64,000 nucleotides of DNA, from the NCBI RefSeq assembly GCF_000760035.1, contig NZ_JNAO01000004.1:62001-126000 (forward strand), given 5' to 3'. Positions 17,243-49,075 of this stretch are shown here, one piece after another (within the stretch, counting starts at the first letter, position 1; every line of letters begins with the position of its first letter). Under the pieces are notes generated by a model, which was not told the DNA's origin, did no database searches, and saw only the letters and a program-made list of their open reading frames with translations. Made by a program: the position numbers and the translations under genes. The stretch comes from Prochlorococcus marinus str. MIT 9314. Its GTDB lineage: Bacteria; Cyanobacteriota; Cyanobacteriia; PCC-6307; Cyanobiaceae.

Positions 17243-19725
17243 AAAATATTACGAAAAATTATAAGCAAAATAACTTAATTTCTAAAATTAAGAAGTTTTT
17301 CACTACAAATGGATGGGAGCCACTACCCTATCAGATCGAATCATGGGAAGCATTTTTAAATGGAGAAAGTGGAATAATACAAGTTCCTACTGGATGCGGC
17401 AAAACTTATGCTGCATTAATGGGACCCCTATCAAAGATAGAAGATCCCAAAAATAATAAAAGTGTGAATATATTATTAATAACCCCTTTAAAAGCACTAA
17501 GTAGAGATCTAAAAAATTCCATACAATTAGCAGCTTTGCATTTTAATAAAGCAATCACTGTTGAAATTAGGAACGGGGATACAACCCCATATGAAAAGAA
17601 AAAGCAACTAGCTAAACCACCTAATATTCTTATTACCACTCCAGAGTCTTTATCTCTTTTACTTTCTAATAAAGAATCTAATAATCTTTTCAAGGAGTTG
17701 TCATCAATAATTATTGATGAATGGCATGAATTGATGGGTAGTAAAAGAGGAAACCAGTGCGAGTTATCTTTAAGTTGGCTAAGAGGTAATATAAAAAATT
17801 TACAAATTTGGGCAATGTCTGCAACCATTGGAAATATTGAAGAAGCAGCAAGAGCAATAGTTGGGATGAGCGCTATTAAACCCAAAATAATAAGTACAAA
17901 TATTCAAAAAGAGATTGAAATTATAAGCGTTTTGCCAGAGGAGGAAACGACCTTTCCATGGAGTGGCCATCTAGGAATCAGAAGTCATTCTTCACTTTTA
18001 AAAATCCTAGATAAAAATAAAAGCACATTATTATTCACCAATACGAGAAATCAATCTGAAAGATGGTATCAATGTCTTAAATTTTTTCTGCCAGAGATGG
18101 AAGACAAAATTGCACTTCATCACGGTTCCCTCGATAAAGAAGATAGAAAAAGAGTTGAAGAAGGGGTTAAAGACGGATTAATAAAATGGGTAGTCTGCAC
18201 CAGCTCGTTAGATTTGGGAGTTGACTTTCAACCTGTAGATCAAATAGTTCAAATTGGTAGTGCAAAGAATTTAGCTAGACTTATCCAAAGAGCGGGAAGA
18301 AGTGCTCATAGACCAGGTGGAAAATCAAAAATAATTTTTATGCCTACTAATTCTTTGGAGTTATTTGAGATTAGTGCAATGAGAAGAATAATAAAAAGTG
18401 GTATATCTGAGAAAATTAGACTTCCTGAATTATCTTATGATGTGCTTCTACAACATCTAATAAGTTTGGCATGTGGAAATGGCTTTGATCCGAAAATTGA
18501 GAAAGAAAGAATCAAAAATTGCTGGAGTTATAGAAACTTAAAAGATCAAGATTGGAATTGGTGTCTTGACTTTTTAGAATATGGAGGAAAATGTCTTAAA
18601 GCATATCCAAAATATAAAAAGATAGTCAAAGAAGAATCACAAAATAACAATGAAAACTTTAAATATTTTGTAAAAGACAAATCTTTAATAAGAATGCATA
18701 AGTTCAATATTGGGACAATTACAAGTGACAAATTTGTGAATGTTAAATATATGAAAGGGAAATCCTTGGGAAATTTAGAAGAGAATTTTGCCTCAAAATT
18801 AAATCCTGGAGATACTTTTTACTTTGCTGGTAAAATGCTTCAATTTATAAGAATCAGAGATATGATTTTATATGTTAAAAAATCAACCAAAAAAAGTTCT
18901 CTAATTCCTGCATGGGTTGGAGGTCAAATGGCAATTTCTGATCTCCTTTGTGAAAGTTTGAGAAAAGAGATAGATATATGCAATGAATCAGAAAATTATG
19001 ATTGCTCGAATCCTGAACTAAATTCATTACGCCCAATATTGAAGAAACAAAAGGTTCTTTCAAATATTCCAAAGAAAGATGAATTCCTTATAGAAATATA
19101 TAAAACCAAGGATTTATCAACTATTTTTGTTTTTACACTTGATGGCAAATTTGTAAATGAAGGAATTGCATTTCTATGGGCTTTAAGATTAGCAAAATTA
19201 AAAAAATCTACATTTAGTATTGCTGCTAATGATTTTGGATTCAGCTTAACTACCTCAGAAGATTATGATTTTTCCATAATTAAAAAAGAAGCTGATTATT
19301 TTTTGGATAACAAAAAATTAGAGAATGATCTAGAAAATGCAATTAATTTTTCAGAATTAACAAAACGTAGATTTAAAAATATTGCCCAGATAAGTGGACT
19401 AGTAAATCAAAATAATCCAACCAAAACAAAAACTTCTTCTCAACTTCAAATAAGTTCAAGTCTTTTCTACGACGTCTTTACTAAATATGAAGAAGGCCAT
19501 CTTTTGATACAACAATCGCATCAAGAAGTTAAAGAATATCAATTAGAAAACAAAAGAATATCTAGATCATTAGAAAGATTAAAAAATTTAAAAATGCTAT
19601 TAAACGAGATAAGAACGCCAACTCCTTTTGCTTTCCCTTTATTAGTTGAACGACTTAAAAATACTTTAAGCAATGAGCCAATAGAAAAAAGAGTAGAAAA
19701 ACTTATAAAAAAATATAGTGATTGA
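17239..19725 (+). CDS. Ligase-associated Lhr-type DEXH helicase
   Basis: 828-residue superfamily 2 helicase. Walker A is VPTGCGKT (about residues 49-56); motif II is IDEWHE, the DEWH variant typical of this subfamily; motif III is SATIG; motif VI is QRAGRSAHRPGG. A winged-helix and C-terminal Lhr domain follow. The protein probably acts with the ligase and two nucleases in double-strand break or crosslink repair. The gene overlaps the ligase by 4 bp and abuts the PdeM gene with no spacing. Confidence 0.92.
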   Translation: MKNITKNYKQNNLISKIKKFFTTNGWEPLPYQIESWEAFLNGESGIIQVPTGCGKTYAALMGPLSKIEDPKNNKSVNILLITPLKALSRDLKNSIQLAALHFNKAITVEIRNGDTTPYEKKKQLAKPPNILITTPESLSLLLSNKESNNLFKELSSIIIDEWHELMGSKRGNQCELSLSWLRGNIKNLQIWAMSATIGNIEEAARAIVGMSAIKPKIISTNIQKEIEIISVLPEEETTFPWSGHLGIRSHSSLLKILDKNKSTLLFTNTRNQSERWYQCLKFFLPEMEDKIALHHGSLDKEDRKRVEEGVKDGLIKWVVCTSSLDLGVDFQPVDQIVQIGSAKNLARLIQRAGRSAHRPGGKSKIIFMPTNSLELFEISAMRRIIKSGISEKIRLPELSYDVLLQHLISLACGNGFDPKIEKERIKNCWSYRNLKDQDWNWCLDFLEYGGKCLKAYPKYKKIVKEESQNNNENFKYFVKDKSLIRMHKFNIGTITSDKFVNVKYMKGKSLGNLEENFASKLNPGDTFYFAGKMLQFIRIRDMILYVKKSTKKSSLIPAWVGGQMAISDLLCESLRKEIDICNESENYDCSNPELNSLRPILKKQKVLSNIPKKDEFLIEIYKTKDLSTIFVFTLDGKFVNEGIAFLWALRLAKLKKSTFSIAANDFGFSLTTSEDYDFSIIKKEADYFLDNKKLENDLENAINFSELTKRRFKNIAQISGLVNQNNPTKTKTSSQLQISSSLFYDVFTKYEEGHLLIQQSHQEVKEYQLENKRISRSLERLKNLKMLLNEIRTPTPFAFPLLVERLKNTLSNEPIEKRVEKLIKKYSD

Positions 19726-29468: not shown

Positions 29469-29828
29469 TTTAGATATTTAACTAATACAAACCTATTTGA
29501 TTAATCATGCGTTTGGGAATTGTTGCCATAGAGAAAACCGAATTAAACAATTTTTAATCAGCTATGACAAAAATCAAAAATTTCAAGTTTAGATTGATTT
29601 TTCTTCACTTTAATTTTCAATTTGATACTTCATGAAGAAAAAACTTTTTGAATTTTTTATCAACATGAGCTTTTGGTATAGAAAATTTATCTTTTTTAAA
29701 AAGTAATGATCCCATAGTCATAACAAGAGATTATGTTACTTTTTAAACTATATTTTATTTTTTTTGATGAAGTATTAATACTTAAAAATTTTTCCAGAAA
29801 AGCTTGTTTTGATAATGCTCCCGAAGAG

Positions 29829-29939
29829 TTATCCACTTTTTAAGCGTTTTTCAACAGGGTTTTCCACAATATGTTGATTAAATTTGAATTTCTATGTGCA
29901 AAATAAAATATTATCTTCTTTTAAGAAAAACTATCCACA
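29829..29939 (+). promoter_or_regulatory. Cluster of three DnaA-box-like motifs
   Basis: Within 111 bp and in one orientation are TTATCCACT (29829), TTTTCCACA (29860) and CTATCCACA (29931). TTTTCCACA is the consensus recalled for cyanobacterial DnaA boxes. The flanks are very AT-rich. The whole gap 29469-29999 holds no other convincing gene; a 24-codon ORF at 29632 is weak. Confidence 0.45.
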
Positions 29940-29999
29940 ATTTTTTTTTGGGATCACTATGATCTCAAATGTCTTTAAATAATTTTCAGTAGAAATCTT

Positions 30000-31500: not shown

Positions 31501-31602
31501 ATGACCGAAGTAACTAGCAACTCCTCAACTGGATGGTACTTAATCGCTTTGGTAAGCACTTTATCTTTTTTAGCCTTAATTTACTTCGGCCAAAAAAGAT
31601 AG
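31501..31602 (+). CDS. 33-residue membrane peptide
   Basis: One hydrophobic helix (WYLIALVSTLSFLALIYFG) with a basic end. Last of the packed run of tiny membrane genes; a perfect-stem terminator follows at 31633-31670. The size would fit a small subunit of a membrane complex, but I could not identify it. Confidence 0.55.
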   Translation: MTEVTSNSSTGWYLIALVSTLSFLALIYFGQKR

Positions 31603-31632: not shown

Positions 31633-31670
31633 AAAAAAAGCTCTGCAACTTCATGAGATACAGAGCTTTT
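31633..31670. terminator. Bidirectional intrinsic terminator
   Basis: AAAAGCTCTG (31636-31645) and CAGAGCTTTT (31661-31670) form a perfect 10-bp stem. It has A/T runs on both sides, seven A before the left arm, so it can stop transcripts from the tiny-gene run on + and from the small gene on -. Confidence 0.85.
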
Positions 31671-31722
31671 AATTATTGAGTAACTGATTTATATAAATCT
31701 GTTGATTATAAAACCTTTTTTC

Positions 31723-31812
31723 TTAATCAAAGAAAAAGAGACCGATGAATGTGATGAAGATACTAAATTCACGGCCTCTATGATAACCGCATTTTTCGGT
31801 AGATACGACAAT
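31723..31812 (-). CDS. 29-residue peptide gene with strong SD and apparent ATT start
   Basis: A near-perfect ribosome site (GGAGGTGA, minus sense) precedes two overlapping frames. The frame starting ATT at 31812 gives VVSTEKCGYHRGREFSIFI and a hydrophobic end (FIGLFFFD), with C-ending codons (ATC, TTC, GTC, CTC) typical of highly expressed genes. The alternative is a TTG start at 31811 giving 40 unremarkable residues to 31689. The shared downstream terminator supports a real transcript. Product unidentified. Confidence 0.5.
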   Translation of the reverse strand: MVVSTEKCGYHRGREFSIFITFIGLFFFD

Positions 31813-31943
31813 GAATCACCTCCTTTACTAATGTTTTTTTAAAGATAACTAAAAGAATTAAATAAGGAAAGAAATTCGTTAAAAATTTAAAAGTTTTTTA
31901 ACAAATTAAGGATATAAATCTCTTGAAAATAAATGTGTTGATA

Positions 31944-48841: not shown

Positions 48842-48939
48842 AAAAATAAAATACCTACCAAAAGCCTGTAATAACAAGCAGTTTGATAGGTAACACCGGA
48901 TCCCCGTCAGTTCTCTGCTGCATCGACCTGGAAAAGCCA
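48842..48939. repeat. Right attachment repeat within the 6S RNA 3' end
   Basis: 98 bp, counterpart of 38945-39042. It includes the terminator hairpin of 6S RNA (ACCTACC... with ...GATAGGT) and the last part of the RNA. Because this copy is joined to the complete 6S gene, the element restored the gene on insertion. Confidence 0.8.
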
Positions 48940-49075
48940 GAAGAGGATTCAAAGTGGGCTTTCGTTTCCGATTACAAGATCGGTTTACTACCGCATCACG
49001 ACAGTCTCCTCAAGTCGAAAGAGAGTCAGATCAGAGCACATAAAGAAGAACTTAACCAAAGATCCAGTAATCTAA
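48890..49075 (-). ncRNA. ssrS: 6S RNA
   Basis: Roughly 185-nt RNA gene immediately downstream of purK in the same direction, where cyanobacterial 6S RNA is known to lie. In RNA sense the 5' ACTGGATC (49068-49061) pairs with 3' GATCCGGT (48902-48895), an 8-bp closing stem with one G-U, and a terminator hairpin follows. 6S RNA binds RNA polymerase holoenzyme and modulates transcription. Ends are estimated from pairing. Confidence 0.75.

Follow-up and report, generated by a model that had tools for sequence, protein, structure and literature searches.

A probable small-protein gene of Prochlorococcus with a TTG start, an extended Shine-Dalgarno site and a predicted structured transcript

The window analysed here, i.e., the whole 64,000-nucleotide stretch of Prochlorococcus marinus str. 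MIT 9314 (RefSeq assembly GCF_000760035.1, contig NZ_JNAO01000004.1, positions 62,001 to 126,000), comes from a high-light (HL) type of Prochlorococcus and carries Rfam matches to Yfr17 (29713-29978, minus strand; 109.6 bits) and 6S RNA (48889-49073, minus strand; 92.3 bits), while Rfam at curated thresholds returned nothing at the locus described below. The nearest complete relative is a genome that we take to be MED4. The minus strand carries the sequence AAAGGAGGTGATTCATTG, and the following features were assigned at the locus:

31842..31847, minus strand: possible -10 element TATCTT, 18 nt upstream of GGAGG here and about 18-20 nt in the alignment, proposed by eye from conservation
31812..31824, minus strand: extended Shine-Dalgarno sequence AGGAGGTGATTCA, a 13-nt pairing with the 16S rRNA 3' tail that includes one G-U pair and reaches the start codon
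31778..31816, minus strand: micro-frame opening with ATT, 12 codons and then TAG, not conserved and rejected
31689..31811, minus strand: small-protein open reading frame (ORF) with a TTG start, 40 aa (MSYLPKNAVIIEAVNLVSSSHSSVSFSLIKKKGFIINRFI) and stop codon TAA, assigned from conservation and coding tests
31737..31779, minus strand: hairpin within the ORF, with a U-rich stretch after it, assigned from folding and from pairing among HL sequences
31686..31699, minus strand: palindrome GATTTATATAAATC over the stop codon, assigned from sequence
31636..31670, minus strand: terminator hairpin with a U-tract and a long loop, -16.2 kcal/mol, with none of 200 shuffles as stable

The 3' tail of 16S rRNA, located in the same genome, reads GGATCACCTCCTAA, and AGGAGGTGATTCA, whose core GGAGG occupies 31819-31823 (minus strand), scores highest as its complement on either strand of the window; a second 13-nt match, at 17610, contains more wobble pairs. 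Under our own energy model, the duplex formed by AGGAGGTGATTCA and the 16S tail reaches -21.9 kcal/mol, as compared to a best value of -10.0 and a median of -2.7 kcal/mol upstream of the 44 ORFs in the window that are at least 120 aa long; only 2 of 25,592 twenty-base windows attain -21.9 kcal/mol, both of them overlapping the AGGAGGTGATTCA site, and the site of this gene ranges, by the same model, from -21.9 to -24.8 kcal/mol. A preliminary description of this DNA had considered a perfect Shine-Dalgarno sequence to be rare in a genome that mostly lacks strong ribosome sites. The latter point agrees with our counts, as none of these 44 long ORFs is preceded by GGAGG, AGGAG or GAGGT and only five are preceded by GGAG, GAGG or AGGA, with ORF starts taken crudely as the first ATG. 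The former point holds for the extended match but not for the octamer GGAGGTGA (31816-31823, minus strand), which is not rarer than chance in the window, where it occurs twice against 0.77 expected (14 of 100 shuffles reach two); the whole genome contains 28 copies, as compared to 41 of the reversed control. Four of the 28 genomic octamers lie 4-11 nt before the start codon of a frame of at least 40 codons, namely at the present locus, at two genes that we take, from their sequences, to be L4-like and L24-like, and at a TTG inside a longer frame. The exceptional feature of the site is the extended 16S match rather than the octamer alone.

The window's own genome was also compared with four others that we take to be MED4, NATL2A, SS120 and MIT9211. 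Fully pairing 12-nt sites numbered four to nine per genome, and the total of 30, against 33 for the reversed pattern, indicates that the number of such sites is not above chance; one of them, in each of the five genomes, is the complement in the 16S gene itself. An extended site at ribosome-site spacing before a start was found at the present locus in all five genomes, at the L24-like gene in three and at a 49-codon GTG frame in the genome taken as MIT9211, and the remaining candidate starts at extended sites were internal to longer frames or opened frames of at most 27 codons. Among these five genomes, extended 16S complementarity at ribosome-site spacing is nearly unique to this locus.

Two overlapping micro-ORFs do follow the site, as had been described, one of 40 codons opening with TTG (31811..31689) and one of 12 codons opening with ATT (31816..31778). 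The preliminary description favoured ATT as the apparent start and drew an analogy to infC, in which case both the ATT codon and its frame should be conserved. Among 100 distinct sequences, however, the ATT position is ATT in 40 and ATC in 60, ATC being the codon of low-light relatives, and the frame stops after 6-25 codons; GGAGG ends 2 nt before ATT and 7 nt before TTG. An infC-like gene with an ATT start, to which the ATT that does come after the ribosome site in HL genomes would belong, is thus ruled out by the ATC codons, the unkept frame and the 2-nt spacing, and we consider it virtually without prospect. Nor does the ATT translation (IHCRIYRKMRLS) have the biased, C-ending codons and hydrophobic end that had been ascribed to it, as only 2 of its 12 codons have C in the third position and the peptide does not finish in a hydrophobic stretch. 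The infC comparison falls with this frame, the protein frame being the one that opens with TTG; what stands is the proposed small protein preceded by an exceptional ribosome site, for which the TTG frame provides both conservation and a coding signal.

TTG is the start in all 99 distinct coding sequences (CDS), with one substitution allowed in the motif used for cutting, although this count is biased, since the searches that yielded most loci used TTG-containing patterns or a model derived from loci so obtained. The invariant TTG may be a weaker start kept for control. Prior to these counts, a chance match in a Phycisphaerae metagenome-assembled genome with an unrelated frame (L071) and two off-target fragments (L029 and L030) were dropped. 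The 99 CDS encode 33 aa (51 CDS), 40 aa (39 CDS), 26 aa (two), 30 aa (two) and, in one case each, 18, 27, 32, 35 and 41 aa; the C-terminal motif G-x-x-[IL]-N-[RK]-F-I is kept in 94 of them, once with an extra K. As the forms of 30, 32, 33, 35, 40 and 41 aa all keep this motif in the TTG frame, the insertions and deletions that separate them represent whole codons. Within a length class, in-frame stops are missing by construction, and this was excluded as evidence.

The preliminary description had named third-codon-position patterns in relatives as a check, and this check gave a clear result in the C-terminal block and a modest one over the whole ORF. In the C-terminal block (43 distinct variants), single-base codon variants in the TTG frame were synonymous in 13 cases and non-synonymous in six, as compared to 3/19 and 2/19 in the other two frames, and none of 1000 column shuffles reached this synonymous excess. 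Over the whole ORF, the 39 distinct 33-aa CDS had a synonymous fraction of 0.44, as compared to 0.24 in shuffles (reached by 1 of 200), and the 38 distinct 40-aa CDS had one of 0.415, as compared to 0.272 (reached by 7 of 200); variable columns at the three codon positions numbered 20/19/24 in the 33-aa set and 11/15/18 in the 40-aa set, a slight third-position excess. The alignments covered part of the distinct sequences, i.e., 37 of 39 33-aa CDS and 27 of 38 40-aa CDS. A divergent HL copy (L184) keeps RGFIINRFI with a different arginine codon. The frame hence shows the synonymous bias and whole-codon length changes of a small-protein gene, with a coding signal that appears strong in the C-terminal block and modest over the whole ORF, and together the C-terminal bias and the length differences argue that the TTG frame is protein-coding. 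In HL sequences, the first six codons do not vary at all, such that this block may reflect a constraint on the RNA.

The encoded protein has conserved ends, MS[Y/H]LP and KGFIINRFI, and a variable, poorly conserved middle; in 33 chosen full-length members, M1, S2, L4 and P5 as well as G, I, N, R, F and I at the end are invariant. Searches with two members yielded zero matches up to E 1 in Pfam, NCBIfam and PHROG, and the family profile found zero matches in the PDB; the product accordingly bears no likeness in Pfam, NCBIfam or PDB to a ribosomal protein of the rpsU type, which controls the 16S tail. The predicted structure is of low confidence (mean pLDDT 59.8), with one tentative helix and no confident fold, and no hydrophobic membrane span was seen by eye.

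With regard to the transcript, none of 200 shuffles folds as well as the minus-strand region (z -4.1), and the plus strand likewise surpasses most shuffles (z -2.9; 1 of 200). The hairpin inside the ORF is paired in 98.6% of cells among 27 HL sequences (of 38 distinct), with pairing kept mostly by exchanges of G-U with A-U or G-C that alter the amino acid, while its low-light (LL) counterpart is looser, with 81.3% of cells paired; double changes were not clearly above shuffles in either group. At the stop codon, 52 low-light sequences have in common a stem ATTAATAG[A/G] / [T/C]CTATTAAT, for which all 52 rows gave 92.5% of cells paired (93.5% in a subset of 41 of 53 rows) and at most 53.5% when the arms were slid. 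This hairpin contains 27 double-changed cells against 13.1 in shuffles (0 of 500) and has a covariation score of 0.183 against 0.135 (0 of 500), although shuffled alignments often did as well in the number of pairs with a double change (117 of 500) and of pair types (245 of 500), and a single A-U/G-C exchange, which may reflect few events, accounts for 20 of the 27 double-changed cells. On paired and double-changed cells, RNA structure at the low-light stop codon is conserved beyond coding need, as is expected of a dual-function sRNA. The HL palindrome GATTTATATAAATC is possibly the counterpart of this hairpin. The terminator that had been reported to follow is present at 31670..31636; a promoter and terminator scan missed it, its loop being long, and proposed one terminator-like site inside the ORF (31791..31770; 0.1 expected), which is not used in our reading. 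A sigma-70 scan found no promoter-like site at the locus. In loci L061-L104, an element like GAAnATTGTnnTAAT, about 50-66 nt before GGAGG, and a GCTAnT box recur upstream of the ORF, as judged by eye, and these may represent a regulated promoter.

Five of the 99 distinct CDS lack the C-terminal motif. In four (L079, L094, L096 and L167, the latter from the genome taken as SS120), the hairpin of the ORF leads into a T-stretch ahead of any stop codon, which resembles a terminator, and KGFIINRFI is missing; a transcript terminated there would be without a stop codon. The fifth copy (L168, near 806,900 on contig C1 of genome G124) keeps the ribosome site and the hairpin arms with an ORF cut to 18 codons and is apparently decaying. 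Retention of the RNA part upon loss of the protein end suggests, for these copies, either an RNA role or decay.

A sequence-only profile with strict filters found the gene in 120 of 400 family genomes, with one copy in each; the window's genus contributes 60 of its 68 genomes and 13 other genera contribute 60 more (14 of 59 genera, with 45 family genera having no match), and no matched genome exceeds 2.05 Mb. The eight genomes of this genus that the profile did not match (G236, G002, G413, G425, G023, G431, G437 and G442) are 95-99% complete, which points to either loss or strong divergence. Of 44 named stretches that contain an exact 18-base low-light pattern, 43 are from Prochlorococcus and the remaining one is a chance match; nine of 145 genomes of the class matched, eight of which fall in the family, the outsider (E 0.005) being at chance level. 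A phage origin was considered and rejected, as viral contigs had no exact match and phage records no protein match, and DNA matches to 13 Escherichia, Shigella and Thermus phage records were at chance level only (E 0.7). In the window's clade, the gene lies 120 nt after a short-chain dehydrogenase gene on the same strand; elsewhere the neighbours vary from clade to clade, such that the gene is not part of a fixed operon, and one low-light clade has a common same-strand gene about 600 nt downstream. The convergent neighbour (31501-31602, plus strand) is a 33-aa hydrophobic ORF in the window's clade, and in the genome taken as MED4 (L106) it is a 242-aa gene that, from its sequence, we presume to be amidotransferase-like, such that the downstream side of the locus is exchanged between clades.

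We interpret the locus as a stand-alone, single-copy Prochlorococcus small-protein gene with a TTG start and an extended Shine-Dalgarno site, the structured transcript of which is probably under constraint as an RNA as well and perhaps functions as one; we place the probability of this reading at roughly 0.78. A protein of 30-41 aa with conserved ends and a variable middle would be made from TTG on a short mRNA that recruits ribosomes through a Shine-Dalgarno helix of 12-13 nt, which would engage nearly the whole free 16S 3' tail up to the start codon, and this recruitment would be set in a genome where few genes carry such sites. The transcript would end at its own terminator and, given its hairpins in the ORF and over the stop codon, is probably also constrained as RNA. 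What the sequence comparisons best support is thus the translation of a small protein from a structured RNA with a perhaps dual function.

The alternative that deserves most attention, although we consider it unlikely, is a regulatory RNA of the Yfr type, in which function would reside in the 16S-complementary 5' region and the hairpins, and the ORF would be incidental or would serve ribosome loading only. The 5' part is indeed the most conserved block at the nucleotide level, hairpins occur in the ORF and at the stop codon, and five distinct copies lose the protein C-terminus while keeping the 5' block and hairpin arms; by contrast, it is in one frame only that most C-terminal changes are synonymous, and the forms with the C-terminal end differ by whole codons. 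Control of a downstream gene by a leader peptide or attenuator would account for a short ORF with, in HL sequences, an internal hairpin and then a U-rich run, and the common same-strand gene in one low-light clade would suit it there; however, the terminator comes after the ORF, the window has its next downstream ORF in the opposite orientation, and the gene found downstream varies with the clade, all of which make this explanation quite improbable. A type I toxin of a toxin-antitoxin pair, a role that has been suggested for Yfr6/Yfr14 and Yfr8/Yfr9 in published ncRNA work (PMC2518516), would likewise be small, with a structured mRNA and a strong ribosome site, but a gene that 60 of the 68 genomes in the genus retain, and whose product shows no hydrophobic membrane span by eye, is a very poor candidate for such a toxin.

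Comparison of the small-protein gene with described systems yields two published parallels for its ribosome site. In Flavobacterium and other Bacteroidota, rpsU, which encodes bS21, typically stands alone in carrying an extended site (up to 13 bp, below -13 kcal/mol) within a site-poor genome, and Flavobacterium rpsU is read preferentially by ribosomes that lack bS21, with autoregulation shown (PMC9976891). The present locus is similar in that one gene carries an extended site (-21.9 to -24.8 kcal/mol in our own energy model) in a genome mostly without Shine-Dalgarno sites; it differs in that its product, 30-41 aa long, belongs to no known family and is not a ribosomal protein controlling access to the 16S tail as in rpsU, and in that L4- and L24-like genes also carry strong sites. 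In Staphylococcus aureus, extended, start-proximal Shine-Dalgarno helices have been described at about 30% of initiation sites (PMC13009471); there, as here, pairing runs past the core toward the start codon, affecting start choice in S. aureus, including at non-canonical starts, while extended sites are common in that organism and nearly unique here. These likenesses concern the anatomy of the ribosome site, and the gene is not an rpsU.

Among Prochlorococcus RNAs, Yfr6 and Yfr9 of MED4 have been described as ncRNAs with a 33- and a 44-aa ORF, respectively (PMC1242208, PMC2518516), and likewise represent short, structured transcripts with a conserved small ORF, for which a dual RNA has also been proposed. 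The gene is distinct from Yfr6, since MED4 Yfr6 (627729-627972) encodes a different peptide (MTLIYRG...); in the genome taken as MED4, the locus starts at 661996, a position covered by none of the published MED4 ncRNA positions that were compared. Yfr103, which is 290-328 nt long, with seven paralogs in Synechococcus CC9605 and occurrences in other Synechococcus (PMC5069720), is likewise conserved in low-light Prochlorococcus and stands alone, but the present gene is shorter, has one copy per genome and gave no match in genomes above 2.05 Mb; from what that report gives, length, copy number and distribution make identity with Yfr103 unlikely. No description of the gene was found in the literature searched, and it may already bear a name.

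A further and rather doubtful idea, suggested by analogy, is that the small protein acts as a sentinel gene for ribosomes with a free 16S tail (immature, damaged or protein-depleted), with the product or the RNA feeding back on the ribosome; if so, it would be an analogue of bS21 autoregulation built on an unrelated protein in an unrelated phylum. Genomes of Prochlorococcus are very reduced, yet many lineages keep this tiny gene. Prochlorococcus is described, in a statement that itself cites another paper, as likely not reliant on Shine-Dalgarno sites (PMC5607370), and a 12-13 nt pairing in such an organism makes the gene a natural probe of whether and when ribosomes there engage the 16S tail. 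In addition, the sharp signature MS[Y/H]LP...KGFIINRFI makes the family searchable in existing proteomes and transcriptomes.

Finally, two other loci with extended sites were noted in the five-genome comparison. The L24-like ribosomal protein gene starts with GGAGGTGATTTAAATG, a second extended ribosome site, in three of the five genomes (L206, L204 and L217), and in the genome taken as MIT9211 a 49-codon GTG frame, hydrophobic near its start, lies behind GGAGGTGATTTGTG (L209) and represents another possible small protein.
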